This document shows positions 30,684-56,773 of a stretch of DNA of 64,000 nt, in pieces. The notes under the pieces were generated by a model. It worked only from the letters and a program-made list of their open reading frames with translations, was not told where the DNA came from and ran no database searches. How positions within the stretch are numbered: position 1 is the stretch's first letter; the number at the start of each line of letters is the position of its first letter. The translations under genes and the position numbers were made by a program. Source of the DNA: Methanolobus sp. WCC4 (GTDB taxonomy: Archaea; Halobacteriota; Methanosarcinia; Methanosarcinales; Methanosarcinaceae); the NCBI RefSeq assembly GCF_038022665.1, contig NZ_CP150629.1, positions 2,090,480 through 2,154,479 on the forward strand, in the 5' to 3' direction.

Positions 30684-31280
30684 GTTCCACCCCTTGATCA
30701 CAATGATCCTGTAGGATCATATGAAATGTCCCCTTAAAAAAATAGACAGAACTTTGATAAAAAGGTTGGCTAAAAAAGTGCAAACGAAAACTTACAACTG
30801 TTGATATTCTCATGTAATCGGCATTCTCATGTACATGCCATACTAGAAACCTTTGATTACTGCAGTATTGTTGTGAATGGGGAAGTAGCATATTATCAAA
30901 CATCCGTTTTTTATATACAGAATGAAATATTGTGAATAGTTGTCTCCGCCACATTTATTCCAATATTGAGCACTATTGAAAGTACGTATTATCTGAATAA
31001 AGTCCAACAGTCAAAATAAGATTATAGTATATTTTGCACTTATAATTTAGTGCATTTAAATATTGAACTAACTATAAAACATCATCAATGTCCTTATCAG
31101 ATTATTTAATCATTAGAAAATTATTAAATACAGAATATTTATATACAATATAACATGATACATTAATATAAATCATTGTGCAAAAGTTAAACTAACTATA
31201 TGTATATCCCCGTGATCTTCATCCAGAAGTCCGAGAGACCAAAGAATAACCGGACTTTAAACTGTCAAGAAAGGAATATA
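30684..31280. other. Divergent intergenic region with kinase upstream element copy D
   Basis: No gene seen. It contains ATTCTCATGTA twice (30805 and 30823), element copy D at 31025-31040 (TAGTATATTTTGCACT) whose TGCACT is mirrored by AGTGCA after eight bases, and AT-rich promoter-like DNA near 31130-31180. Confidence 0.45.
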
Positions 31281-38881: not shown

Positions 38882-39020
38882 CCACTGTAGAAGACCGGGG
38901 ATGCTTCTTTACTTGAAGATGTGTCAACAAAGGAGGAGTAAGAATCCTAATACTGTAATATCGTATTATGGAGTAGAATTAAAGCAAGAGTAACGGAATC
39001 AGCAATTAAGGTGAATGTCA

Positions 39021-39593
39021 ATGATAAGAACAGAGTCACAGGAAACGAATAGCTGGCCCTTAACAGATGGAGATTATATCATAGGTGATCCGGAATCTTC
39101 GGTTGCTGTGGTGACACTATCCTCTGATCACCATACCCTTGGTCTACAGAATTATGCAATATGTGGCACATGTTTTACGGAAAATTTTGGCATACAGAAA
39201 GTGATCGTAAATGTACTTTCAAATCCCAACATCAGTTGCCTGATACTTTGCGGTAAAGAAAGTAAGCATTTTGCAGGTCAATCTATCATGGCACTTATAG
39301 AGAACGGAGTTTCGGCCATGGGAGGTTATAAAAAGATAATCGGATCAATAGGAGTGATCCCTTATCTGGATGAGATACCCATGACCGCAATAAACCGCTT
39401 TCTGCGAGAGATCGAAGTTATAGATCTCATTGATATTACTGATCGTGGAACAATCCAGAGCAAAATAGATTCCTGTATCCATAAAGAACGAAAAGAAGCA
39501 GCGAACCATATAATGCCTGAGATCGATGAAAATAGCTGGAAGAAGTATGAAAATATAGTTCAGCAAAACACCATGTCGAAGATAAAGAAATAG
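39021..39593 (+). CDS. MtrA-like corrinoid protein without membrane anchor
   Basis: About 190 residues similar to subunit A of tetrahydromethanopterin S-methyltransferase: WPLTDGDYIIGDPESSVAVV, GTCFTENFGIQKVI, LSNPNISCLILCGKE and IGSIGVIPYLDEIP follow the MtrA pattern. The His expected to bind cobalt is present in CGKESKHFAGQ, but the usual Gly before it seems missing, so the loop is one residue shorter. The C-terminal membrane helix of true MtrA is absent and no other mtr gene is nearby, so this is a soluble paralogue of unknown partner. ATG 39021 is chosen because GGTGA lies 6 nt upstream; ATG 39015 overlaps the ribosome site. Confidence 0.8.
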   Translation: MIRTESQETNSWPLTDGDYIIGDPESSVAVVTLSSDHHTLGLQNYAICGTCFTENFGIQKVIVNVLSNPNISCLILCGKESKHFAGQSIMALIENGVSAMGGYKKIIGSIGVIPYLDEIPMTAINRFLREIEVIDLIDITDRGTIQSKIDSCIHKERKEAANHIMPEIDENSWKKYENIVQQNTMSKIKK

Positions 39594-41852: not shown

Positions 41853-42135
41853 GTGTGACGGTGTGTCAATACCATTCGCAACTCCGATGACGCTTCGGAA
41901 GCACAAAGCGAGGTTCTAAGCTACGCTCAGCACCGCAATAATGAGAAGAAAAGTTTGTTAACTCTGCAAAAACAAATTGCAAGAGAAATAGATAAGTGTG
42001 GTGGGCCCGATGCCATTCACAACCCAGATGACGCTTCTGGAGCGCGAATCGAGGTGCATCGCTGCGCTCAACACCACAATAATGAGAAGAAAAGTGTAGT
42101 AACTCTGAAAAACAAACTACAAGAGAAATAGATAA
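41853..42135 (+). repeat. Two decayed tandem units of a 140-bp repeat ending in tRNA-Val 3' sequence
   Basis: Units begin at 41853 and 41996 and the third is the left attachment site at 42136. Each unit shares AATAATGAGAAGAAAAGT, an ACTCTG...AAACAAA segment and CAAGAGAAATAGATAAGTG. The second begins with TGTGGTGGGCCCGATG, the tRNA-Val 3' end, followed by degraded T-arm sequence. They look like leftovers of earlier insertions or duplications at the same tRNA gene. Confidence 0.65.
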
Positions 42136-42136
42136 G

Positions 42137-42186
42137 TGTGGTGGGCCCGATGAGATTCGAACTCATGACCCCCGCCGTGTAAAGGC
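42137..42186 (+). other. Left attachment site (attL), tRNA-Val 3' fragment
   Basis: It is identical over 50 bp to 56695-56744. It contains the anticodon-loop to CCA part of tRNA-Val on the minus strand, but the 5' half of the tRNA is missing here. The sequences diverge right after AAAGGC. Confidence 0.9.
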
Positions 42187-42217
42187 CTCCCCTGTATCCG
42201 TTTGCGAATATATACCG

Positions 42218-43042
42218 GTGCAAGAGAGCCGGACATCTTCCCATGCAGAACACCCACAGGTACTGAATGATGTATGGGCCCACCACAAGGAATCTTTCAA
42301 GGATTGGTTGAACGATAAAGATGTTTCTCAGACAACAAAGAGAGATTATTATAACGCTCTTAAACGGTTCTTTTCTACTGAATCAGTTCAAAAACCACAG
42401 GACTTCAGGAAGCTCGATCTGAGAGACAAAGAAGAGCGTGGATTACGTAATTTGTTCAACTATTTTGAAGATGAGGACATTGATGATGTCTGTGGATATT
42501 CTATTCAGAAATGGCGGCGTTATGTCAAAATAAAGAAATCAAATGTCTATGAAGTCTATGTTACAGATGAAGAGATTCAGGAAGCATATGAGAGTTATCA
42601 TGAAGAATTGAAACCTATCTATAAGTTGCTGATGTACTCTGGAAATCGACTATCTCATATTCACAAGATGCTGAAGACTTTTGATGAACGCAATATTGTT
42701 GTAGATGGAGAGGTTGCACATTACCCATCAGCTGCTTTCTCATCAGGAACAAAGAAGACATTCCAGATATACTTCCCATCTTCATTCATTACTACACTGA
42801 AAAGCATCGGCAAAGTCTATGGATACGATTACTATGCCAAGAGAATCAGGCATAATCGTGTATGTGCAAAGACTATTCGCAAGTGGCACCTTAACTTGAT
42901 GATTAAAGAAGGAGTTACTGAGAGTTTGGCTGATTTTATTCAGGGAAGAGCACCTGCTACTGTAGGAAGTGCTCACTATCTCAATAAGGTACAGCAGTCG
43001 AAAGAGGAGTATAGGAGGATTTTGAGGAACTTTGTTATATGA
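42218..43042 (+). CDS. SSV-type tyrosine integrase, C-terminal (catalytic) part
   Basis: From GTG 42218 the part gene codes for 274 residues, but the frame is open back through the attachment site to 42086 without an ATG, because the true 5' part is at the other end of the element. Catalytic features of tyrosine recombinases are visible: Arg in YSGNRLSHI, Lys in SGTKKTFQIYF, a CAKTIRKWH segment, and the nucleophile Tyr in VGSAHYLN. GVTESLADFIQGR before it is characteristic of archaeal SSV-type integrases. Joined through the 50-bp repeat to the fragment at 56410, it would give one protein of about 396 residues. In the integrated state it is probably silent. Confidence 0.88.
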   Translation: MQESRTSSHAEHPQVLNDVWAHHKESFKDWLNDKDVSQTTKRDYYNALKRFFSTESVQKPQDFRKLDLRDKEERGLRNLFNYFEDEDIDDVCGYSIQKWRRYVKIKKSNVYEVYVTDEEIQEAYESYHEELKPIYKLLMYSGNRLSHIHKMLKTFDERNIVVDGEVAHYPSAAFSSGTKKTFQIYFPSSFITTLKSIGKVYGYDYYAKRIRHNRVCAKTIRKWHLNLMIKEGVTESLADFIQGRAPATVGSAHYLNKVQQSKEEYRRILRNFVI

Positions 43043-43211
43043 GTGGCAATAATTCCCTGATTATTTGAGGTTAGGTCATTCATTTTCGTATCGCATCTTT
43101 ACACTATATTGAGGGTAGCAAGAATTCAACATAAGGGCAAAAACCCTATTTGCAGGATTTAACACTATCAATAATATAAATCAATGTTTACTGATTTTGA
43201 TAACATTAACT
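43043..43211. other. Short gap after the RHS gene; no immunity gene
   Basis: Only 169 bp separate the integrase part gene from the RHS stop, and no frame is seen. RHS toxins usually have an immunity gene directly downstream, so its absence is notable. Confidence 0.5.
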
Positions 43212-46200
43212 TCATTTCTCTTTAGATTCACCCCCTTTTGTGAAATTAGTCAACAATGCGGAACTTGTGCCGAAAGCAACTGAGAAGGGGGAAGGGGGTG
43301 CATGAGAAAAAGCGAAGTTATGAGCCCCTTGAAATGGATTTCCTGGAAAAGGATTTCCTGGAAATGTATATTCAGCTGGATTTATGATAGAGGGTTTTAG
43401 TCCAGCATTCTGCATAATCCATTTTGGAGCACCAGCATATTGAACACTATGCCATGCCTCATGCACGGGTGTAGTGTAAATACTTCTTCCATGAAGTAAG
43501 CGAGACATGCCATGACTTGTAAACAAAAAATTACGATTTGGAATACCATAAGTTGGATTAAATTGTGTTAATGTTGGAAGTCGAGCACGAAATTTAGGCA
43601 CAAATGAAGTTTCATATATAGTAGCTATATTTTCCACTATGTTATACCTTCCATACAAATTAAGTTCCGGTGGATCCCCACCATACCTGAATTTCAAATC
43701 ATTTTTTGCCCCCGCTATGCGACGTACACGGGGAGCCATTCTCCCCAGCTGATTATTTCTAATACGGGCTCTCCTTTGAAGTCCGCGAGGGCCTAAGCGA
43801 TGTAAAGCATTGACACCCCGATTGTAGGCAAAAGAAGTACTTGCGCGAGCAAAGCCAAAGCCACTCCGGCCAAGTGTGTAGATGTTAATACCTTCTGAGC
43901 CAAATTCAAGCCAGTCTCCCTTCTCTGCCGCATCCCACATGCGACCAGGAGTTTCGATAATGCCCTTACCCATCTGCGAAAAAACATCGCTGATGTCCAT
44001 CCCCCCTTCAGCCATCTTACCAATCCCACTGACAACTTCGTGATGATAGTCCCACCAGCCTGTCGCAATCCCAATAGCTTCTATAATGACACCACTCAAG
44101 TCTTCAGCTTGCTTTACACCTTCTACGAAAATATTGGTAACAGCCCATACGGCACCTCCCATCGCTAAAACTCCTCTCCCCCACCAAGATAATTCATGGT
44201 GTTCGCCTATTCCACCTACATCTGAGCTATTTCCACCTTGAACATTACTTCCAGTTGGAACATTATTTGTTGCTGAGAGTCCGAGACGGTCAGTCCATGC
44301 ATATGGGTTGCCTTTGGCAAACCCATAGCGATCTATTCCATCTATAATGCCCAAAGGCTCAGGCTGTAAAAATCTTCCAGTAGTTGAGTCATAAACCCTA
44401 TATGGGGTCAAGTAAAGGTTTTGTGAATCAGCTCTCCAAATACCGTGAAAACCATACTGATTCTGCAAAGCAGGCTCTGTAGCTGCAATCTGTTGTCCAA
44501 ATACGTCGTAATTAGTAGTGGAGATTAAATTTCCAGAGCTATCTGTGATACCTACAAGAGACCCTGATAGATTTGTTAAGGGTATAAAGTTTGCTCCACA
44601 CTGCGCGATTTGAACGAGGTCTGCTTCTGATATTCCATGTACATATTGAACTAGAGGATTACCATCTGCACTTCTGACTTCAATAATGGAATGATTTTGG
44701 TAAACATACCGTTTATCTACTCCGCCTTCTGAAACAGTGAGCATGCGACCAAAAGGATCGTAGGTAATCTTAAGTAAAATGTCTGCCCCCTTAAAAATTG
44801 TAGTCAGACGATTCTCTTGATCATAGACAAAACTAAAGTTTCCATTTTTTATGAGATTCCCGTGACCATCATGAATCCGGTTAACACCTTCTATGGATGT
44901 ATAACGTCCAGATTCATCAACAGAGTAATTGATGGTTTCTAAAATACTCCCACTTTTTCGGTGGATAGTACGTTCTCTAGGACCATCATTGAAAAGTTCA
45001 AAGAGAATTTCTTCTTTTTCGGGATCTGAATCAATACTCAAAGATATATTTGAAGAAAGGTTATCAAAATCTGACTGTGATAGCACGTTTGTTCCAACAT
45101 TACTGAAAGACAAAATATCAATGAGGGAAATATTTGTTGATTGCATTACATCTATCACCCGACCTTGTGCATCTGCTTGTATAGATTCAGTCCATACTGT
45201 ACTATCTTGATCAGTTTGAATTACTTTAGGCAATCCACGCGAATCAAAAATTCTGGAAATTTCTAAAATGGGTTCATTCTTATCTTCTCTATAATAATTG
45301 AGATGTATCAATCGCCCAGCTGGATCTCGAAGAGTCCTAGCATTTAATGCTTCACCAAATTTTCTAGCAGTGTATCCGCGAAATCCAAGAGGGCATGCTT
45401 GTAGAATAGAATTAGTCATATCTGTGGATCCAGGATCATTACGACCAATAGCAGTTTGATGGATTTCTGTTAGACAGCCAGCTAAATCGTATTCATATTT
45501 TAATGTCCTTCCATTTGGGTATTTAAGATTCGATAAACGTGATGCTGAATCGTACTCACAAGAGACCGTAAGACCATCAGTATTTTCAGAAATGAGAAGG
45601 CCTCTAGAGTCATAACGTTGCCTAATAAAACTTCTGCCATCAGCCACGTGGGTAGGACGACCTAATCCATCATAAGAGAATTTAATGAGTGAGGGGCCGT
45701 TCACATGGTACCACGCTGCACCAGCAGGAATTTGCAATGCACTGCGATCAATTTCCTGTCGCTCAATGTGACCATCGCCAGTATACTTAAACTGGGATAT
45801 CACTCCGTTTCCATCTTGATGCCAGACCAGATTATCCATAGCATCATATCTATGTTGTACAATTACCTCACTACTGCCAGAAGGGCCATATTTGTAGATG
45901 ATGGGACGACCAAGTATATCATGTTCAACCTCCATAACACGTCCCTTCGGGCCATTTATCTGCTGGACTTCACCTGCCGAGTCTCGCACCACCTGAAGGC
46001 GGAGTTCTTCAGTAGTACCTTTAGCTACTATCATTTCCTGAAGATCACCAAAGGCATCACGTGTTTCTTTGATTTCAAATCCAAGTTCATCTTTCGCAAG
46101 GACCCTGCGTCCTGTACTATCCCACTTCAAAATGCGCTGGTTTCCAAGGGTATCTTCCAACAAAATAGGATTCCCAAGTATATCAAAAATGGTTTTGGTC

Positions 46201-49200
46201 TGAAACATTTCATCCACAGAAGTTCCATCCGGCTGGCTGGCCGTGGCAAAAACCCTTTCAATAGTTGTTCGATTGATTGTGTCATATTCCCTTTCAATAC
46301 GATTGCTTTCAGCATCTTCAATTTTAATGATACGCCCAAGCCCATCATAATCATAACAAATAAATTCACCTTCCGGAAATTCGATTTTTCTTAGACGGTC
46401 CGCATGATCATAGAAAAAGACCGTCTCAGCTTTTTCTTCTGAGTCCTCTCCAGCAGGATCAAAAACAAATAAAATACTTTTTCGTAAGCGTCCACCTTCA
46501 TCACGCTCAAACTCCTCTTCAGCCAATCGCGTATTCTCACCGGCATCTGGATGCTTTCCATATATAATACGCTTGGTTAACTTATCCAACGCATCCCATT
46601 CTAGTTTTTCAATGGTTCCAGAGGGAGAAATTCTACGAGAGATGCGCCCATATCCATCATATTCACAACATTCAACGTTCCCAAGAGGATCCCTCACAGA
46701 TAGAAGTTGGCCTTCCCTGTTGTATGAATAAATATACTTTGCCTCATCAGCAGTTCCGGATGCTAAAATTTGATCACTAATTTGCCCTCTGGAATTATAT
46801 GTGAATTTAGTGACCATTCCACGTGGGTTCATAGCACTGATAAGTAGCCTATCTGGACTATACTCCATAATTGTTTTACGAGTAATAGACCCATCTCCTG
46901 ATTGATCCAATACTTTAACAGGGTCGCCTGAATCGTCGTATTCAATTATCTGAATTAGAGTACCAGAATAATCTAAACGGCCATTACTATTCATTCGTAC
47001 ACTTTTTACTTTAGCAACTCGATCGTGTTTTGTGTAGTCAAATTCTGTTATCCCCGGAAGACCACCTGACACATGAGGTGAAAGCTCTTCCCTTAACACT
47101 AAACCAAAATGGTCGAAGGTTTTTTTTACTTCAAGACCGTCTGCTTCACGAAGTCTTACCAATCGGCCTCCAAAATCCCATTCCATTTCCCTTTCGAGCG
47201 CAAAGCCCTCTTCATCACAGATTTCCTTATTGATATATGCCTCCAGCCCAAGAGTATCAAAATAATCGTAGCGTGTAACCAAATCGCTTTCTGAGAACAT
47301 AGGAATTCTTCGCCGTACTAATCTTCCCCTATTATCAATTTCAAGAATTATCTGCCTCTCAGACTGAATACTTCCATCAGGGAGTGTTGCATTAGGATAT
47401 TCAACCCGAATGAGGTTTCCTTTCTCGTCATAGATAAATTTGCGAGTGACGCTAGGAGGACCATTTATAGGCAGCTCATCAATTCCCGCATAATATGGAC
47501 CGATTTCTTTTTCAATATATCCGAAAGTTGGATGATAGGTGAAGGTAGTAATCCTCTTTGGAGGGGAATTGGAACCAGGAATAGCATATTCTATTACTTT
47601 TCGTAGTTCCCCAAATCTGGCCTTGTCAACTGGAGGAGCGGTTTCAGGATCTCCTATTATGATTTCATATTCCTCTCGACCATAACGATATTCAATTACT
47701 CCACCCTCAGGGCGCTCCTCCCTAATTACACGGCCGTCGAGATTGTAACGATAACAATATTCAATAGTACGAAAAGATCCCTCTACAAATTCTCTTGTGG
47801 AATAGGAAACGACTCTGCCCAAATCATTATACTCGTATTCGTGGATGTTTCCATCAGGAGATTGAACATAAACCCTAACTCTTCCATAATTATGAGGTTC
47901 AAGTTGAGGATCAGAGGATATAGGCAAAATAGATTCGTAGTCATAAATCCATATTCCTTTTCCTTCTTTTTGTGCAACTACTCTATTATAAGAAAGCCTC
48001 TTAGGCTGGGTGCCATATTGAACTCTCAAGATTGAAATACCACGCGGGTCTATCACTTCCACGATATTATTTTCCATACCCATGGGTGCAAGATTTCCCA
48101 AATATCTATAACCGTGACACCGCTGAAATTGCTCCTCACGACCAGTGCTATGATTAACCTCAACAAGCCTTCCAGCCGAATCATACTCATACTGAATCCA
48201 ACGATCAGATGCCTTGTCAATCAATCTCACAAGACGTCTATCATCATCATATTTCAGACAAATCTCCCGCCCTGAAGTATCAATTATTTTAATCAATAGA
48301 TAATCCTCATACTCAAAGAGGATTTCATTCCCGTTGAGATCAGAGATGCGTTCAGCCTTAAGATTTTCATTATAAAAGATTCGGCGTCCTTCAGGACTTA
48401 GAAGAATATATTTTCCAGACTTTTTTATCAAACACTCATGAATTCCTGCTGGGCTTCCAAATATTGCATCAGCAACCCCGGTAAAGTCATCTGGAACATT
48501 AAAACCTTCATTTTTCAAAACAAATCTATCCATTCGCAGCGATCCACTGCTAACATACACTACAAAATCCTTACCACCTTTGATATTATCCTCTAAAGCT
48601 TCCCTAAGCCACAGATTATAGGAATGGTCCCATTGTTTCCCCATTGGACCATCATAGTCAATCCTGTGTCGATAGGTTCTACTAAACTGTATATCTAAAC
48701 CAACTCCAGGTATCTCCAAGTCAATTTCACTTAATATAAGGTCACCTAAAGCAAGCAGTACAGGGTCACCCCCACTTGATGAGTCTCCAGGAGGTTGAGA
48801 ACCCCTGCGATCTGATGTACTGGTCCCACCAGAAAGTTGTATGGGAGCAGAACTTGGACGTTCCAGTCCTCCAATAGAACGTGAATCTGCGGAGGGATCA
48901 AATGGGTTTCGCCCTGCCAATATTTCATCTAAATCAGGCCATATAGAAAGAAGAGTTTCTCTCGAATTAAAACGCAGAAGAATCCTTAAAATGTCGGGAT
49001 GGGTGAGTGCTGCCCTTAGTTGAGCATTTTGTTCTTCCAATGAAAAAGAAGAGTTTCTTATTAGGGTCGCGGCAGGAGAAACTGCAAGATAATAGAAATC
49101 CTCATCGTCAGCGTTGTGTGTACTGACAATCGTACCAGTATCATCTATTTGGAAAATTGGTAAACCATTTACTGAAAGATGACTTTCAGCATAATAGCGT

Positions 49201-49316
49201 AGTGCCTCCACAATAGTTATCCTTTTTTTATTAATAAGAGAACCATTTTCATCAATGGAATAGGAATAATATTGATTATCTTCTTCTAATTGGATATAAC
49301 GTTCTATCTCTACCAT
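43212..49316 (-). CDS. RHS/YD-repeat polymorphic toxin-like protein with HEAWH C-terminal domain
   Basis: A 2,034-residue protein with no signal peptide. After about 180 residues of unique sequence comes a DUF6531-like start of the RHS shell (GDPVLLALGDLILSEIDLEI), then dozens of YD repeats (for example YEYDSAGRLVEV, YDYDGLGRIIKIED) to about residue 1630. The RHS core motif follows (YRVYDSTTGRFLQPEPLG, then GNPYAWTDRLGL). The remaining roughly 355 residues are the variable region, with a Gly-rich hydrophobic part and HEAWHSVQY at 1952-1960, a zinc-metallopeptidase-like site. RHS shells enclose a C-terminal toxin and often cut it free. The gene has its own TATA box upstream and lies on the same strand as the 594-residue gene. 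Confidence 0.88.
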   Translation of the reverse strand: MVEIERYIQLEEDNQYYSYSIDENGSLINKKRITIVEALRYYAESHLSVNGLPIFQIDDTGTIVSTHNADDEDFYYLAVSPAATLIRNSSFSLEEQNAQLRAALTHPDILRILLRFNSRETLLSIWPDLDEILAGRNPFDPSADSRSIGGLERPSSAPIQLSGGTSTSDRRGSQPPGDSSSGGDPVLLALGDLILSEIDLEIPGVGLDIQFSRTYRHRIDYDGPMGKQWDHSYNLWLREALEDNIKGGKDFVVYVSSGSLRMDRFVLKNEGFNVPDDFTGVADAIFGSPAGIHECLIKKSGKYILLSPEGRRIFYNENLKAERISDLNGNEILFEYEDYLLIKIIDTSGREICLKYDDDRRLVRLIDKASDRWIQYEYDSAGRLVEVNHSTGREEQFQRCHGYRYLGNLAPMGMENNIVEVIDPRGISILRVQYGTQPKRLSYNRVVAQKEGKGIWIYDYESILPISSDPQLEPHNYGRVRVYVQSPDGNIHEYEYNDLGRVVSYSTREFVEGSFRTIEYCYRYNLDGRVIREERPEGGVIEYRYGREEYEIIIGDPETAPPVDKARFGELRKVIEYAIPGSNSPPKRITTFTYHPTFGYIEKEIGPYYAGIDELPINGPPSVTRKFIYDEKGNLIRVEYPNATLPDGSIQSERQIILEIDNRGRLVRRRIPMFSESDLVTRYDYFDTLGLEAYINKEICDEEGFALEREMEWDFGGRLVRLREADGLEVKKTFDHFGLVLREELSPHVSGGLPGITEFDYTKHDRVAKVKSVRMNSNGRLDYSGTLIQIIEYDDSGDPVKVLDQSGDGSITRKTIMEYSPDRLLISAMNPRGMVTKFTYNSRGQISDQILASGTADEAKYIYSYNREGQLLSVRDPLGNVECCEYDGYGRISRRISPSGTIEKLEWDALDKLTKRIIYGKHPDAGENTRLAEEEFERDEGGRLRKSILFVFDPAGEDSEEKAETVFFYDHADRLRKIEFPEGEFICYDYDGLGRIIKIEDAESNRIEREYDTINRTTIERVFATASQPDGTSVDEMFQTKTIFDILGNPILLEDTLGNQRILKWDSTGRRVLAKDELGFEIKETRDAFGDLQEMIVAKGTTEELRLQVVRDSAGEVQQINGPKGRVMEVEHDILGRPIIYKYGPSGSSEVIVQHRYDAMDNLVWHQDGNGVISQFKYTGDGHIERQEIDRSALQIPAGAAWYHVNGPSLIKFSYDGLGRPTHVADGRSFIRQRYDSRGLLISENTDGLTVSCEYDSASRLSNLKYPNGRTLKYEYDLAGCLTEIHQTAIGRNDPGSTDMTNSILQACPLGFRGYTARKFGEALNARTLRDPAGRLIHLNYYREDKNEPILEISRIFDSRGLPKVIQTDQDSTVWTESIQADAQGRVIDVMQSTNISLIDILSFSNVGTNVLSQSDFDNLSSNISLSIDSDPEKEEILFELFNDGPRERTIHRKSGSILETINYSVDESGRYTSIEGVNRIHDGHGNLIKNGNFSFVYDQENRLTTIFKGADILLKITYDPFGRMLTVSEGGVDKRYVYQNHSIIEVRSADGNPLVQYVHGISEADLVQIAQCGANFIPLTNLSGSLVGITDSSGNLISTTNYDVFGQQIAATEPALQNQYGFHGIWRADSQNLYLTPYRVYDSTTGRFLQPEPLGIIDGIDRYGFAKGNPYAWTDRLGLSATNNVPTGSNVQGGNSSDVGGIGEHHELSWWGRGVLAMGGAVWAVTNIFVEGVKQAEDLSGVIIEAIGIATGWWDYHHEVVSGIGKMAEGGMDISDVFSQMGKGIIETPGRMWDAAEKGDWLEFGSEGINIYTLGRSGFGFARASTSFAYNRGVNALHRLGPRGLQRRARIRNNQLGRMAPRVRRIAGAKNDLKFRYGGDPPELNLYGRYNIVENIATIYETSFVPKFRARLPTLTQFNPTYGIPNRNFLFTSHGMSRLLHGRSIYTTPVHEAWHSVQYAGAPKWIMQNAGLKPSIINPAEYTFPGNPFPGNPFQGAHNFAFSHAPPSPFSVAFGTSSALLTNFTKGGESKEK

Positions 49317-49379
49317 GAATTCAACTCCATGATATAAACGGGATGATAGACACTCTAGCCCACTTAAAACCGCTTATAG

Positions 49380-49396
49380 AATAATAAATATATTTC
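49380..49396 (-). promoter_or_regulatory. TATA-like promoter of the RHS gene
   Basis: On the minus strand AAATATATTTATTATT lies about 65-80 bp before the RHS ATG, within the 114-bp gap after the companion gene. Confidence 0.35.
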
Positions 49397-49430
49397 ATTA
49401 GCTACGTTATAGTTTTTTTTTGATTGTTTG

Positions 49431-51215
49431 TTATTTGGTACCTAAACCTATAGTCTTTAACCGCAAATCCCGAATTTCCTTGTCTGACATATTTAAGGAG
49501 CAGCACATCCTTTCTGTAGGCATAGACAGAATATCGGCTTTGTTCACTTTTTCACCTAAAACACTTTGTAGGCGTTTGGCAATAGTTTCACTAATACCGG
49601 GAATTTTTGACACAGGAGGGTTGCACTCTGATGGTTGTTTACGAAGAAGACGAGCGATTTGCTTGTGGAAATAATCGGTCTGATAATAGTGAACTTGACC
49701 CGCTGGTTGCCTACCCCTACCTGAAACACTTCGAAGTATTTCTTGCCCAATTACATTAGACATTTCCCGAGATTCGATAAGTGCAGACTCATTTGCAGGT
49801 CCTGCTACAAATCTTAAACCTCGATTTGAAACGTCTTTTTCATAAGATATCCACTCCCCAGGAAGCAAAGGAACCACAGTACGCTTACAGCAACAAAGCC
49901 GTCTTCCTGTAAGGAACAATGTCTCCACTCCATCACCTGGAGTTGGAGCTATTTCTTGAAGATAAATACGGACATCAATCTTCAACTCACCATCCAACAG
50001 AAGATCGTTCGTCGTATAGTCGCGGTCTTCATATCTCCAGGTAACTGCTCCAAAAATTGTTAAGTAATCGGATCCATGTGTGACATTCCAATTTTCTAGC
50101 CGTTTTGCACTTAGCTGTATAACATTAAAATCAGTAATCTCCCAACCAGCAGGAGGGTAATATGTTTGTGAATCTTGCACTAGTTGTGTGACTGAATCAT
50201 CTTCTATAGTTCCTCCTCGATTTTCAGCTTTAGCGAGGAGGTAGAACTCGAAATCATCAGTCTTTTTCTTATGGGAATAAGTAGCCTTAGTACCTACATG
50301 AGCAGTTTCTAGTTCTACTTCAAGACAAAGTCCCATCATATTATGAGGACGGCTTACTACCAAAAATACTTCCTGAATACCCTCCAACTGTCTTGGACCA
50401 TTAACAAATGTAAAATTTGAAGTAACAATATGAGGGCGAGGTTGGAGAAAGAAGATAGCCCGGTTAGTCCCCAAATGATAAGCTTGAAAAAGGCTATACA
50501 TCTGGGACAGATTTGTAGTGCGAGAAAAACCCTCTCGAATTTCCTCCAATCCATCTGTTGTGCGAATATCCATTCGCTGAGTCTGCGAAAGTTCCTTAGT
50601 TCCCCACTGTCCTTGCTGACCATAGTTCAATCCAGCACCTTCCTTCTCACCCCCAACTTTCAAACCAACGTTAAAGCCCATGTCAATGTCAAGAACCTCA
50701 GTAGAATTTGTTGTGGTGGTTCCCTTTTTCACATTTACAGATTGAACAGACCTAGATACCCTTTCACCACTCTCGGATACCATTTCATATAATTCTCTTT
50801 TCTTTGGTTCAAAATCAACAAAGTAGGGATATTCATCAGCCTTAAACACAGACTCTTCCGGTTTTGTAGGTCCTACAGAAACACTGAGAAGAGCACCATA
50901 ACATGGAAAATATTCGTCGAGTTTGTCTCGAAATTCTTCGATACCCGGAAGAACGTCCCATGCATCATCTGACACATCTAGTTCTTTCCCATTGGGTTGG
51001 AATCCAGTGATAGTAGCCACTATCTTCAAATAGGTAATGATTCTTCCTTCATACACCTGTTCCTCCTTTGGTGGTTCATAAGAAAAAGCAGCAACCGAAC
51101 TACGCCAGCGAGGTGGTTTTTCCTTATCGCAAATCCCCTCATCTACCATATCCTCGCTTACACACAACCTTTTCCATTTGATGTCTTCCGGAAATTGTAA
51201 GATTCCAATACCCAT
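49431..51215 (-). CDS. Unknown 594-residue protein, companion of the RHS protein
   Basis: I do not recognise the family. There is no signal peptide and no membrane helix. Residues about 160-225 form a Ser/Thr-rich stretch of alternating polar residues with Gly (GTTTTNSTEVLDIDMGFNVG, then GAGLNYGQQGQWGTKELSQT), the kind of pattern seen in beta-pore insertion loops, but this is only suggestive. Near 440 there is a CCC triplet (GRRLCCCKR). The C-terminal 60 residues contain a helix-hairpin-helix-like segment (VSKIPGISETIAKRLQSVLG). ATG 51215 is preferred (GAGGGG 7 nt upstream) over the TTG at 51230. The gene precedes the RHS gene on the same strand with a 114-bp gap, so it may be a delivery or handling partner. 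Confidence 0.75.
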   Translation of the reverse strand: MGIGILQFPEDIKWKRLCVSEDMVDEGICDKEKPPRWRSSVAAFSYEPPKEEQVYEGRIITYLKIVATITGFQPNGKELDVSDDAWDVLPGIEEFRDKLDEYFPCYGALLSVSVGPTKPEESVFKADEYPYFVDFEPKKRELYEMVSESGERVSRSVQSVNVKKGTTTTNSTEVLDIDMGFNVGLKVGGEKEGAGLNYGQQGQWGTKELSQTQRMDIRTTDGLEEIREGFSRTTNLSQMYSLFQAYHLGTNRAIFFLQPRPHIVTSNFTFVNGPRQLEGIQEVFLVVSRPHNMMGLCLEVELETAHVGTKATYSHKKKTDDFEFYLLAKAENRGGTIEDDSVTQLVQDSQTYYPPAGWEITDFNVIQLSAKRLENWNVTHGSDYLTIFGAVTWRYEDRDYTTNDLLLDGELKIDVRIYLQEIAPTPGDGVETLFLTGRRLCCCKRTVVPLLPGEWISYEKDVSNRGLRFVAGPANESALIESREMSNVIGQEILRSVSGRGRQPAGQVHYYQTDYFHKQIARLLRKQPSECNPPVSKIPGISETIAKRLQSVLGEKVNKADILSMPTERMCCSLNMSDKEIRDLRLKTIGLGTK

Positions 51216-51735
51216 CTTTATACCCCTCAATAAACAATAAATAAATAGAAATTAAAATTTACAATACTTTAAGTAAAAGTAATTAAATATACAACTAATA
51301 TATGCATTTGGAAACTGTGTTTCTAAAGTCAAATACTAAAAATATACCTTAACTAACAATAATAAATTGTTTATTATTGAATAAAATTATCATCAGGAAT
51401 GTGGTACTGAGTTTGTCTTATTAGTAGGCTTGGCTGATAACAAAAACTTTCCTGCTGTTGAAGGGGAACAAAGATGATTCCTTCTATCATAACTCCTTTT
51501 TATGTGGTTAAGAGATATGATCCAGATTGTATAAAGAAAATCCATAAGACTTTTTGTGCGAACTGGAAGAACAAGAGACTTTGGATTAGATAGATTTGAC
51601 CTGAAATACAATCGGACGTATAATGAAAACGTGACTGAATTTAATCATTACCCAGTTTATGTAGAATTGCTATCAATAACGATATGGATTAAAGAGGATT
51701 CTTTGAACCCTTAGATTTTCTAACTCCTGATACAT

Positions 51736-51951
51736 ATGCGTTCTACAAACCCCGCCTCTGATAGGCGATGCTTGAAAAAATACTTCTATAGCAACAAATA
51801 CGTAATATCTAAAGCAGAACACATCCAGGATTGGCACTCTTCGCAGGAACCAGTTAGTAATGTAATCAGTGAATCTGGTTTAGTAATAGAAGCAAATCTT
51901 TGTGACAGGTGTGGTGTTCTGCATGGGAAATTACCTAAGTCAAAAGCATGA
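51736..51951 (+). CDS. Doubtful small protein with CxxC near its end
   Basis: A 71-codon frame from ATG 51736 ending with LCDRCGVLHGKLPKSKA. The CDRC motif could be half of a zinc site. Two of the AGAACAC motif copies lie inside the frame, and there is no clear ribosome site, so it may be chance. I do not recognise it. Confidence 0.2.
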   Translation: MRSTNPASDRRCLKKYFYSNKYVISKAEHIQDWHSSQEPVSNVISESGLVIEANLCDRCGVLHGKLPKSKA

Positions 51952-52163
51952 GGCAGTTATTCCTACCGGAATTATATTGATAAGGTAGAACACGTCCTGC
52001 AGTGGGATCAATCCTTAAATATTGGGAATTATACATAGCTAGCAGTCTAGCAAATACTCAGCAATGATCAGGTAATCACTCTGGCATAACAAGACGTTGC
52101 TGGGTCATTACTTAGGCACGATACTATATCCAAGGTCTAAGCTATTACTCCCATATTCATATT

Positions 52164-52298
52164 ATGATAGACCAGAGGCTTTTGAGACGATAGATACTAG
52201 CTGAACTAAGAAGAATTGCTGAACATCATAACAAGTCAAGAGTTGAAGAGCAGCACGTAATGGCTGCATACAATAAAATGTATGAATCCGTCCCTTAA
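52164..52298 (+). pseudogene. Gene remnant with an in-frame TAG, partly duplicated near 56.2 kb
   Basis: From ATG 52164 the frame gives MIDQRLLRR, a TAG, then ILAELRRIAEHHNKSRVEEQ and a further 17 residues to a TAA. A related stretch at about 56187-56310 reads RLLK, two stops, then RRDELRITEPFGRLNVDPA. The similarity is at both DNA and protein level. It is probably a decayed gene; because Methanosarcinaceae read UAG as pyrrolysine, the first copy could in principle be intact. Confidence 0.35.
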
Positions 52299-53516
52299 TC
52301 TGCCCGAACCTCTCCCTTGAAGAGTCGGGTAAAACATTCATTGCACATGGTGACGTCACCAAGACCGTGGATAAAGAACAGAGCTAATCAAAGACTAACC
52401 TACTTCAAGAACCCTATTTGTACGTGAGCATAAATCGCTATCATGCAAGCAATGGCGCTGCATGACGAAAGATAATAAAACGCTACCTAGAGAATAATGG
52501 CTATTGCTATTGTTTCCCTCTGCGCAACATTGTAAACCTCTGTTTTTTCGGCACATTGTATATAAACTTTTTTAGCCAGTTTTCCAAATTTACTCCGAAA
52601 AATTGTTTTTTTGTATAATTCATTTATAAGTACATAGTAAGTTTGTAGAAAAATTTATATAGTTTAAATCAAATCTGGAGACATATGGGGGGTAAGGGGG
52701 GTTGAAACTTATAAGTATACTTGTAAGTACTCTGATGGGTTGCAGTCTGAGTGAGAACACTCGCCCTGCAACAGTGAACTAAATTGTGGACCGCGAAGCA
52801 AGGGTGGTTGCAGATCTGCCTCATACTATAGTCCTGAATAAGTGCCCTCTCCTGGACGTGTTCTGCCTTATAAGATGACAACGCATTGTTCAAGCAATGC
52901 CAGTATCTTTAATGGTGCCCTATGGATTTTTCTTCACGTAGCCATAGCAACATCCCGACACATCATCTCTGCCAGTTCAGCATGCTTCTCTTCAAAGCGG
53001 AGTGACTTGCGTGAACGAATATACTGCTTGATTCACATAAAATATCAAGTCCTCTATTTATGTGAATGAATTCGAGTAACAAAGCGCATATATCGACAAT
53101 TGACGAACAGTTGTGAAATAATTCCTGCAAAGAAAAAATGTGCCAAGCAAGGACCTTGGCAAAGTGACACGAAATATCGAAGCATATTCCAAACATCGTA
53201 ACAGTCATGAATAGCTCACAAACCTCGGCGAACTGTTACAATATTGACTGATGCCGAACTTGTAATTAGACAAAGGCACATACTCAATGGAAAATCCCTA
53301 TCTTGTGCCATGGCATATTAATAACTGTGGATTCCAATCTTAAAATATCATGCTACTTGCTATGGATTCAAGGGGTATAGTTCCACTGGAAAAGTGTCTA
53401 CTGCTACGTAAAAAACAAACCCCTCACGCGAATATATGCAGTAATACTGTAGTATATTACAGCAGAGTACTAGTAAGAACATCCATCAGTGTAGTAAAGT
53501 ATTCTATACCTATCCT

Positions 53517-53690
53517 ATTACTCGTAAGTATAGGTCCTTTGATACAGCAATACTACAGCCAATGACTCGTAAGTATAGGTAAGTTGCTACAGCAATACTA
53601 CAGCCACTTACTAGTCATTATCCAGTTATCCATACTACGGTCACTTACTCGTAAGGATAAGTCCTTTGCTACAGTCAATTGCCACAGTGC
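53517..53690 (+). repeat. Four iteron-like direct repeats
   Basis: Units centred on TTACTCGTAAGTATAGG are spaced 45, 45 and 37 bp apart (ACTCGTAAG at 53520 and 53565, ACTAGTCAT at 53610, ACTCGTAAG at 53647). The first two also share CAGCAATACTACAGCCA. A degenerate unit lies near 53470 and inverted ATACTGTAGTAT just before. This looks like an iteron array of a replication origin. Confidence 0.6.
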
Positions 53691-53702
53691 AGCCGGCTGC
53701 AC
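53687..53702. repeat. Perfect 16-bp palindrome beside the iterons
   Basis: GTGCAGCCGGCTGCAC, GC-rich in an AT-rich setting, lies between the last iteron and the AGAACAC copy at 53711. Confidence 0.6.
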
Positions 53703-54087
53703 CAATGTGCGTGTTCTAACTTAGATGCGCCTAGGTCAACGACTGGAGCATGGTTGCAGACATACATTACACATACCCCTACAGCGCTCTGAGAGCCCCG
53801 TGGTGGACATTTTATGGCGATTTAATGGTACTATACTACTCAAAAATAGCCGATAGCGTTTTTATAGAAAGATGCATCTAGGAGCGCCGTACAGCCCCAC
53901 TGTTGAGTTGTGTTTTTGAAAAAGGCATCACTCAAGCGTTTGTGCAAATGTGCTGTGGTTGCCTAGGGAACTCCATATGTTTGCACGCCATAATTTGAAT
54001 GATCTCGTATATAAATAAAGCGATGGTTCTTGTATGGCGAGATACTCGAGTTGCGAGTAATGCACAAAGTTGCCCACTGAGTACTTT

Positions 54088-54105
54088 TTACGTCAATTGA
54101 CGTAA
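54088..54105. repeat. Perfect 18-bp palindrome
   Basis: TTACGTCAATTGACGTAA. A further perfect hairpin GCTGCA-TTC-TGCAGC is at 54312-54326. Both are in gene-free DNA and could be binding sites of dimeric proteins. Confidence 0.55.
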
Positions 54106-54794
54106 TAAACACATGGAGTAGAAAACTCCTAGCAACAGACCCATGCTTGCCATATGCATTACTTACTCAAAAAGTTCATGAGTTAATTATAAAGTATGGG
54201 CATCCTATTCCTGTCTGGGTCAGAACACGCCACGCAGTGCAACCAATCTAAGGTTATTGATTTGGTATGAGGCTTATTACTCAGTAGAGTACCAAGGCAT
54301 ATTCTTTAAAGGCTGCATTCTGCAGCATGCTATGTCACTGTGAGTGTTCTAACATAGGTAAATACCTAGGTGCTCTTCCAACACCCCGCCCTACCCACCA
54401 TATGCCGCTGGATTTTAACTACAGTATAAAAAGTTTTCGATAAACCGCTGTATTTGACAACATATGCTGCCCATATCTAGGCAAATTAATACTGACTATA
54501 TAAGTAGAATGCACATATTATCATACATTTGTCAATTATTTTATCTGTTTTTTGAGTTGCGCAGTTGAAATCGACATCATTAGGGCGTGCCCTCTTGATG
54601 CTGCTTTTGTATTAATCTTTGAAAGTATATCCATCATACTATTAGTATCAAAGGACTGTTCAGTAATGGGCTAGAAATACTAGTAGGTAAACTCTGCTCC
54701 AAGTGGAGATAATGATGGACATGGTTGAAATGCACGTGTTCTTTACAGTGCTGCGCAAGCACGAATTAGAATTAGTCAATACTGGTGCGAAGCA

Positions 54795-55421
54795 TCAATA
54801 CTCAATTGTATAGTTGTCGTATGCAAGGAGCCTTACGCCCTTGTCCATCAGCTGACGTTCTACCATAGCAACGATCTCGTCCTGTGGTACATCAGGCCAC
54901 TCCTTCTTACGTAGCTCAACCGCTTTCTTTATGGTGATTATATCAGAAACGCTCATGTCATCGGCGTTTGTGACTATCAGTTCCTCTTTATTATTACTGG
55001 TGTCTTTTACTGTTAGTATCATTGCCATATCAATTACCCCCACGTTGCGTATTGGTTTGGTCATTTGAATTTTTAACACCCTGTTGTCAAGATCATAGAT
55101 AGAGTGTGTAACAATCCCATATTTTTTATGATAGTAAAGATCCGTGTTGAATAAAAAGGTATCGTTAATGATGTTTCTTCGAGTTGGAAGTTCGCGACTT
55201 TGTAGGGATTTTTTAATGATTGCTTGAACTGTTCTTTGTCCAACTTTCAATGTTGCAACAGTTATACTATTTTGCTTAGCAATATCAATTACATTGCTAG
55301 TTAGCTTGAAACTGCCTACTTCTCCTTTATCAATAAGTTCCAAAGCTGCTTTGAAATGTGTATCATACTTAGACCCTATCTCCGTTGCAAATTCTTCTGC
55401 AATATCCCTATCTCTACTCAC
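54795..55421 (-). CDS. Unknown 208-residue protein of the element
   Basis: This is the only convincing gene between the companion gene and the integrase N-part. The product starts at GTG 55421 (MSRDRDIAEEFATEIGSKYD) with GGAGAT 6 nt upstream. It is soluble, charged and mixed helix/strand; residues 45-100 contain basic stretches (GQRTVQAIIKKSLQSRELPT) that could bind nucleic acid. The C-terminal part includes MSVSDIITIKKAVELRKKEW. I do not recognise a family. Position in the repeat-rich half of the element makes a replication or regulatory role possible, but that is inference only. Confidence 0.7.
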   Translation of the reverse strand: MSRDRDIAEEFATEIGSKYDTHFKAALELIDKGEVGSFKLTSNVIDIAKQNSITVATLKVGQRTVQAIIKKSLQSRELPTRRNIINDTFLFNTDLYYHKKYGIVTHSIYDLDNRVLKIQMTKPIRNVGVIDMAMILTVKDTSNNKEELIVTNADDMSVSDIITIKKAVELRKKEWPDVPQDEIVAMVERQLMDKGVRLLAYDNYTIEY

Positions 55422-56023
55422 ATGACATCTCCTTTATCTGTTTCTTATTAGCACTTGACATGGTCCAGAACCGTTTGTCTCGGTCACAGCCCGGCGTTGT
55501 ATGGCGTCTGCAGTTCGGTGCCAAGTAGCTTCACATCTTTGTTGTGAAGTGTTCTTCTGGATATGTCACAATATTTGATAACTGTTCATGATACTTTTTA
55601 AATGTATTGTAAAGAACAATAGAATTTTTCAGCCTGAGTGATCTGAGAAGTACCTATTGTTTGTTCCACAGGAAAGTACCAATTGCATTCCATGGTGCGG
55701 TGTTCTGCTTAATCCATATATCCAATCAAGTCTTACTCACACATTCAACCGATTGAATCAGTGAACGAAACAACATATTTCATTCCGGTTACGATTGCAG
55801 TAATTGTTCAGCAGTGGACCTAGCAGCGTTTCAATATGCAATTCGCATATGAATTATCGAGTATGCCCCCCTCAAAAAGGTCTGATGATTTTCTATTATG
55901 GACTATATCCTGATGATTATAATGAGTAACATTACAAGTTAATTATTAATGAGCAACATATCCGCCAATATTACATAATATAGCAGGTACGCCCTTTTAA
56001 TAAAAAAATAAGACACACGAAAG

Positions 56024-56050
56024 CTTTATTTGCCAAATAAAGTATTATAT
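56024..56050 (+). promoter_or_regulatory. Operator-like palindrome next to a TATA box
   Basis: CTTTATTTG-C-CAAATAAAG (56024-56042) is a perfect 9-bp inverted repeat directly followed by TATTATATG, a TATA-like box. Confidence 0.45.
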
Positions 56051-56058
56051 GCTCTTAT

Positions 56059-56214
56059 ATGAAGCTTGCCCATGATATTGAATGTACGGATGTCTACAAA
56101 ATAGAACCCACAATAATAGTCAAATGGTGCTGCATCACATGGACAGCATTAATAAGTCAAATCCTTATAAGAATGCTTGAATCAAAGGCTTCTGAAGTGA
56201 TAGAGGCGAGATGA
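56059..56214 (+). CDS. Possible 51-residue protein
   Basis: From ATG 56059 the frame reads MKLAHDIECTDVYKIEPTII and ends LESKASEVIEAR before TGA. It lies directly after a palindrome and TATA box, but the ATG would be within about 15 bp of the TATA box, and there is no ribosome site. The end overlaps the duplicated remnant block. I do not recognise it; it may be a fragment. Confidence 0.22.
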   Translation: MKLAHDIECTDVYKIEPTIIVKWCCITWTALISQILIRMLESKASEVIEAR

Positions 56215-56379
56215 ATTAAGAATTACTGAACCCTTTGGAAGACTAAACGTTGACCCAGCAACGTCTGAGCTTATTTACAATATGATTGAGATGTTCGTGA
56301 ATCAGCAGTTTACTTGCAACTGTGCGTGTTCTGTTTAATACGTAACCACAGTATGGCGCAATAGTGTAATTGGACAACT

Positions 56380-56388
56380 CATATATAG
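56380..56388 (+). promoter_or_regulatory. TATA box of the integrase gene
   Basis: CATATATAG lies about 26 bp before ATG 56410, predicting a nearly leaderless transcript. Confidence 0.45.
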
Positions 56389-56409
56389 TGTTGTACAATA
56401 ATTAATTGT

Positions 56410-56754
56410 ATGAAATACATAGGAAAATCAAAGATCACTAAGCATACTGCAAACGCGAAACATACATATCCAAGAGTCAAATTACCGGAGTCACACATCG
56501 AATTAATAGGAGATACAACACATATATTTGAAGGATACTACAAAGGAAAAAAGATACTAGTTTTAGCGTTAGATGAAGACTTTGATGGTGATGTTGTTCA
56601 ATCCATTGTCCAATCACAGGAAAACTCAAATCTAGAAGCTAGGGTTGAAGATTTAGAAAAACTAGTAAAAACACTAATAAGCGAACCAAAGAATTGTGGT
56701 GGGCCCGATGAGATTCGAACTCATGACCCCCGCCGTGTAAAGGCGATGTCATAA
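56410..56754 (+). CDS. SSV-type integrase, N-terminal part
   Basis: The fragment codes for 114 residues: a basic N-terminus (MKYIGKSKITKHTANAKHTY), a small beta domain, a coiled-coil LEARVEDLEKLVKTL, and then a tail translated from the attachment site (CGGPDEIRTHDPRRVKA) that stops three codons after the repeat ends. The tail is antisense to the tRNA. The left-end frame carries exactly the same tail in the same frame and continues into the catalytic domain, so this is the displaced 5' part of the integrase and not a free gene. A TATA box sits 26 bp before the ATG. N-terminal coiled coils are usual for SSV-type integrases. Confidence 0.85.
   Translation: MKYIGKSKITKHTANAKHTYPRVKLPESHIELIGDTTHIFEGYYKGKKILVLALDEDFDGDVVQSIVQSQENSNLEARVEDLEKLVKTLISEPKNCGGPDEIRTHDPRRVKAMS
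56695..56744 (+). other. Right attachment site (attR), inside the intact tRNA-Val gene
   Basis: 50 bp identical to 42137-42186. Here the sequence continues GATGTCATAACCGGC into the tRNA 5' half. Confidence 0.9.
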
Positions 56755-56773
56755 CCGGCTAGACCACGGGCCC
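56697..56773 (-). tRNA. tRNA-Val (anticodon UAC)
   Basis: On the minus strand the gene reads GGGCCCGTGGTCTAGCC at the 5' end and CGGGCCCACCA at the 3' end, with CCA encoded. Acceptor stem GGGCCCG/CGGGCCC is perfect, the D arm is regular, the anticodon stem GCC-TTTACAC-GGC gives anticodon TAC at the expected place, and the T loop is TTCGAAT. It is the integration target of the element; its 3' part is duplicated at 42137. Confidence 0.95.

Follow-up and report, generated by a model that had tools for sequence, protein, structure and literature searches.

An element with a split pT26-2-like integrase gene at a tRNA-Val of Methanolobus, and its relatives at the same tRNA

In the chromosome of Methanolobus sp. 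WCC4, a 14.6-kb element lies at a tRNA-Val gene and carries the two parts of a divided integrase gene at its opposite ends. The genome is a single contig of 2,851,899 bp (NZ_CP150629.1), of which a stretch of 64,000 nucleotides (positions 2,090,480 to 2,154,479) was analysed; this stretch is called the window, and coordinates refer to it unless a locus of another genome is named. The element is bracketed by an exact direct repeat of 50 bp (42137-42186 and 56695-56744), of which no third copy occurs in the window at up to three mismatches, shuffled sequences giving an expectation of zero. The left copy of the repeat, attL (42137-42186), is an incomplete copy of the 3' part of tRNA-Val and matches tRNA positions 1-48 at 100%, and the right copy, attR (56695-56744), lies within the intact target gene, tRNA-Val with anticodon TAC, on the minus strand at 56697-56773 (ARAGORN; Rfam RF00005, 64 bits). 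The insertion point of the element is the 3' end of this tRNA. With the element integrated, the tRNA gene is uninterrupted, its sequence being restored by attR. An earlier note, made from the letters of this DNA, had described the perfect repeats and their spacing and tentatively placed them in a Methanosarcinaceae chromosome, all of which holds for this Methanolobus species; it also expected excision to give back an uninterrupted tRNA-Val, and the gene would indeed be whole after excision, but it is whole already.

The N-terminal part of the integrase gene, int(N), adjoins the tRNA on the plus strand (56410-56694) and has homologues at the same tRNA in congeners; the catalytic part, int(C), lies at the other end, also on the plus strand (42187-43042). 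The right-end frame reads MKYIG...CGGPDEIRTHDPRRVKA and the left-end frame reads, in the same phase, CGGPDEIRTHDPRRVKA-SPVSV... up to 43042. When 56410-56744 is joined to 42187-43042, a single open frame of 396 aa results that contains no stop; the note had given about 396 residues for the joined integrase. The note had led the left frame into a gene at 42218, and the frame is correct, but 42218 is merely the first possible start (a GTG codon); the coding sequence of Int(C) begins straight after the repeat, at 42187.

Int(C) matches the Pfam family PF16795, Phage_integr_3 (E=2.5e-39; 135 bits, cut-off 27), and the PHROG integrase family 5127 (E=1.8e-41), and its only significant matches in the PDB are to the catalytic domain of the SSV1 integrase (3UXU, 3VCF and 4DKS; E about 1e-11). 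In an alignment with the integrases of SSV1, pT26-2 and pGE2, the catalytic Arg, Lys, Arg and Tyr residues and a DFIQGR motif are conserved. The ratio of nonsynonymous to synonymous substitution rates (dN/dS) is 0.03-0.05 against three congeners, so Int(C) has evolved as a working enzyme. The attachment site (att) of 50 bp corresponds to the 3' part of the tRNA and runs antisense to the integrase gene, as in type I integrases. Suicidal integrases have been assigned PF16795 and att sites of 40-50 bp, and Methanosarcinales are given, in brackets, among the hosts of the pT26-2 integrase group (2021 review, PMC8371274). By these features the predicted joined enzyme is a tyrosine recombinase of the suicidal (type I, SSV-type) class and of the pT26-2-like group.

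Int(N) comprises about 95 residues ahead of att, with a predicted coiled-coil-like end. We had considered an AbrB-like DNA-binding domain for this part and set the idea aside as unsupported: Int(N) has no significant Pfam match (the best within the AbrB clan was DUF2080, E=0.012, in one member) and no match in the PDB, and its structural model is of low confidence (mean predicted local distance difference test score, pLDDT, 43). By eye, a TATA-like AT-rich stretch lies about 20-30 nt 5' of the int(N) ATG.

Among the closest named counterparts is the integrase of the Thermococcus plasmid pT26-2, which is 32% identical to Int(C) (E=2e-38, 96% of the query) and which, like that of Pyrococcus abyssi pGE2, carries att in its N-terminal third, antisense to the tRNA, together with PF16795 and the R/K/R/Y residues. 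In contrast, the window Int(N) could not be aligned to the pT26-2 protein by BLAST, and when 29 plasmid proteins were tested against eight elements, the 28 other than the integrase matched neither the window element nor seven relatives. The SSV1 integrase, also a type I enzyme split on integration with a 44-bp tRNA site inside its gene, is 31% identical to the window integrase over 250 aa, whereas of 15 SSV1 proteins only the integrase matches, and no structural or DnaA-like protein of that fusellovirus has a match. Among the 44 pT26-2 and SSV1 proteins tested, then, only the integrases match, and by gene content the element belongs neither with the SSV viruses nor with the pT26-2 plasmids, sharing the integrase alone. 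The note's description of an SSV-type split integrase stands as regards the in-frame join, PF16795, the SSV1 matches in the PDB, the catalytic residues and the empty sites described below, but the integrase is nearer to that of pT26-2, and beyond it the element does not resemble SSV. We had also regarded the antisense att as unusual, expecting SSV and pTN3 sites to read in the sense of the tRNA; this was dropped, since att lies antisense inside the integrase gene in SSV1 and pT26-2 too. The integrase of the Archaeoglobus profundus provirus ApPV1, likewise among the nearest named relatives, is 41% identical over 65% of the query; the window cargo, as judged by family search, is unlike the annotated pleolipovirus genes of the Archaeoglobus pleomorphic proviruses ApPV1 and AvPV1.

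The chromosome without the element can be read from related species. The element was deleted in silico, the left flank was fused to the tRNA, and the product was aligned to relatives, the named Methanolobus species in the comparison being M. vulcani PL 12/M, M. bombayensis and M. psychrotolerans. The predicted empty junction aligns unbroken in three genomes (G017, 95.4% over 217 bp; G005, 90.1% over 314 bp; G023, 86.6% over 342 bp), which provides the tRNA-Val locus lacking the insert that the note had proposed to look for. An mtrA-like gene to the left of the element (39015-39593) is syntenic past the empty tRNA in G017. The immediate left flank (41869-42136), outside the element, contains a tandem duplication of about 140 bp left of attL (repeat families D1/D2; 41869-42150), the first copy of which finishes with some 20 nt from the 3' end of tRNA-Val. 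The empty sites of G005 and G023, and also G002, have a related scar, so this scar is older than the window element. Farther out, at 30795-31030 on the plus strand, lies a decayed int(C) that belongs to this integrase family (42% across 60 aa, with an internal stop and a YLNKVQQSK-like tail). This relic, about 11 kb left of the element, is an earlier insertion.

The same tRNA is occupied repeatedly across the genus. The full layout, with a partial att, int(C) and int(N) at the tRNA, is found in five Methanolobus genomes and in Methanococcoides EBM-47, and the elements concerned range widely in size: 14.6 kb in the window genome, 27.7 kb in M. vulcani (G041; L090/L064), 16.8 kb in G001, 15.8 kb in G002 with a second unit of 7.7 kb in tandem, 3.4 kb in G020, and 6.2 kb in EBM-47 (L099). 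Two genomes have kept att and int(C) beside a decayed int(N) (G007, 10.2 and 3.6 kb in tandem; G019, 3.4 kb), and seven retain parts only (G024, G008, G010, G018, G009, G004 and G011). In a search across the class, integrase matches occur in 57 of 238 genomes, a count that includes those with merely a short att-derived peptide; among the matches listed, every genome belongs to the same family, and 9 of 39 genera are represented. A search of IMG/VR for relatives found none.

These elements carry varied cargo. The M. vulcani element encodes a complete Gabija system (GajA, GajB) and Wadjet JetABCD; type I restriction-modification systems are found in G001 (with an OLD-like ATPase), in the main unit of G002 (with a PtuA-like ATPase) and in G024. 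The second unit of G002 encodes a group II intron maturase and a lectin/PKD protein, the EBM-47 element a GmrSD/Schlafen protein, and that of G020 a lone DUF4209 protein that counts among listed defence candidates. G041, G002 and L099 also encode a D5/DUF927/NrS-1-pol-like replication protein, which the window copy lacks. The Methanolobus tRNA-Val is a landing site for many split-integrase elements, often with anti-virus genes. In this use of one tRNA gene as a common attachment site for exchangeable defence cargo, the elements resemble tRNA-anchored defence islands; unlike those, their integrase is of the self-splitting archaeal type, and the window copy carries no defence system recognised by a search with PADLOC.

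Two further arrangements were observed. In M. bombayensis (G010; loci L092 on contig C2 and L078 on contig C4), att and int(C) lie on a different contig from the tRNA-Val with int(N), possibly through a rearrangement between integrated elements or at a second insertion site. A 5.3-kb contig of G013 (L094, contig C19) carries the parts in the order N-att-C in one direction, with int(N) interrupted by stops and an att from another tRNA sequence; a terminal overlap was looked for in this contig and none was found.

In one genome the two halves are found rejoined. G001 carries, in a tandem array 16.8 kb from the tRNA, an uninterrupted int(N)-att-int(C) open reading frame (ORF) of 436 aa (L065:490-1797), and the int(N) that adjoins its tRNA is a second, differing one. 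The N part of the ORF and its upstream DNA are 92% identical to the G010 DNA that abuts the tRNA, and the C part of the ORF and the tRNA-side N are both nearest to their counterparts in G024. On the simplest reading, an element A received a further element, B, at its att beside the tRNA, which would have joined the N part of A to the C part of B. The ORF appears to be chimeric, derived from two elements, and a search over 40 kb did not reveal the far end of element A. The predicted ORF shows that the reading frame is preserved through att in nature.

The two halves of the window integrase likewise differ in their affinities. Window Int(C) is 93-95% identical to the Int(C) of G041, G019 and G007, whereas for Int(N) the identity between the window and G041 is only 47%. 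The nearest Int(N) to that of G041 is from G002 (78%), and the Int(C) of G041 and G002 are 66% identical. Approximately unbiased (AU) tests reject the grouping of the window with G041 on the N part (p=0.003) and that of G041 with G002B on the C part (p=8e-9), both p-values being optimistic because the pairs were picked after the identities had been seen. Such a pattern of identities cannot be explained by a difference in rate alone, and we propose that integrase halves have been exchanged between elements. In Thermococcus an exchange of halves has been proposed to go through inversions (PMC8371274); insertions in tandem at a single tRNA may offer another route.

We consider it very probable that the window holds a mobile element that was integrated by a suicidal type I, pT26-2-like integrase and that is now locked but releasable in trans or by way of a rebuilt gene. 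In the circular form, the reading frame of an intact integrase gene would have enclosed a 48-50-bp antisense copy of the 3' part of tRNA-Val. When this circle recombined with the chromosomal tRNA-Val, a whole tRNA would be left at the right end and the gene would be divided, with int(N) beside the tRNA and int(C) at a distance of 14.6 kb; this arrangement is itself observed, and the reaction is taken from characterised relatives. Such a split would lock the element, because no intact integrase of this family is left in the window genome. The window copy is probably locked, and its self-release at present appears unlikely, since the sole PF16795 match in the whole genome is the split gene. Release could come about only through a related integrase acting in trans, or through the insertion of another element at the att beside the tRNA, by which the first int(N) became joined to a second int(C), as the G001 sequence shows. 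On excision, the circle would regain the 396-aa gene. The rebuilding of the integrase that the earlier note had attached to excision would be its consequence and could not be its cause, as the split gene needs prior complementation. Three points weigh against this account. The circle and the activity of the integrase are predicted here from sequence; the window copy has no gene recognisable as one for replication, and a circle may therefore not persist; and the histories of Int(N) and Int(C) conflict, so that the halves need not derive from one original element.

The last of these points bears on an unlikely alternative, in which the int(C) and int(N) ends belonged to two elements formerly in tandem whose middle was lost or replaced, the shared phase of att keeping the join in frame. 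The contrast between 93-95% identity in Int(C) and 47% in Int(N) relative to G041, with the AU rejection on the N part, would be expected of such a composite island, as would the tandem arrays of G001, G002 and G007 and a 3.6-kb stretch inside the element that holds no recognisable genes. On the other side, both halves have kept an open frame and the two 50-bp sites match exactly, and the integration of a single, already chimeric integrase would give the same mismatch between N and C. Less probable still is that the element is mobile by itself, excised at a low rate by an Int(C) that is expressed separately and acts alone or together with Int(N). Int(C) does have a full catalytic domain, strong purifying selection and an in-frame start at 42218, and a lowered activity in vitro has been reported for the truncated Int(C) of SSV1 and SSV2 (PMC8371274); however, Int(N) and Int(C) of SSV2 did not cooperate in solution and integrated copies without an intact integrase have been reported as trapped (PMC8371274), and the purifying selection may stem from episodes with an intact gene. 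That a duplicated tRNA fragment lies by chance beside unrelated ORFs reading through the antisense tRNA is scarcely credible. Antisense tRNA readings such as PDEIRTHDP are common in spurious ORFs, but both halves have homologues across many genomes, the recombinase domain has all its catalytic residues, and the idea is refuted by the uninterrupted gene of G001 and the empty sites.

The same tRNA-Val may have a wider role. We give about even odds to the view that it serves as a genus-wide exchange point, at which tandem same-site insertions recreate chimeric full-length integrases from an old int(N) and a new int(C), freeing locked elements and mixing integrase halves as well as defence and conflict cargo. 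If true, such a same-site route would stand beside the one by inversions that has been proposed for Thermococcus. The biology of archaeal mobile elements has yet to explain how elements with self-splitting integrases get free and are maintained. A series of congeners that have, at one tRNA, no insert, a single insertion, a tandem array or, in one case, a rejoined chimera makes the exchange of halves directly testable, in culturable methanogens. To judge from the cargo (type I restriction-modification, Gabija, Wadjet, RHS), integrases of this type may spread defence and conflict genes as well. The split-integrase mechanism is already known in archaea, and the newer part lies in the details and in the comparative series around the tRNA; the note's impression of a poorly described case holds for the details only, as Methanosarcinales had already been listed for this integrase group (PMC8371274).

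The RHS cargo that the note had recognised in the window element is a YD-repeat protein of 2034 aa encoded on the minus strand (43212-49316), with matches to PF05593, PF20148 (DUF6531) and the Rhs core domain TIGR03696 (residues 1603-1680). It has YD repeats, an RHS core and a variable C-terminal domain, and by these features the predicted protein fits the RHS/polymorphic toxin class of cargo. A HEAWH zincin-like motif was seen, by eye only, in its C-terminal tail. Directly upstream, on the same strand (49431-51230), is the gene of a 599-aa cargo partner that had no match in family-library searches and no relative among the 237 other genomes of the class, and whose structural model is of low confidence (pLDDT 34). 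It is 31% identical over 99% of its length to a protein of a Rhodococcus opacus plasmid whose neighbour is a DUF6531/RHS-type protein (the pair at L118:12031-19985). This points to a two-gene unit common to both domains and suggests that the pair may have been transferred between bacteria and archaea.

Toward the tRNA, an orphan ORF of 208 aa on the minus strand (54795-55421) has no significant family match and is absent from the 26 congeners searched. Between it and the 599-aa gene, the 3.6-kb stretch without a recognisable gene (51231-54794) shows no significant similarity either to the genes that related elements carry or to any DNA compared, and no remnant of the D5/NrS-1-pol-like replication gene of the relatives was found in it. 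It holds three imperfect 45-bp repeats, at 53514-53603 and 53641-53685, which are iteron-like in appearance.

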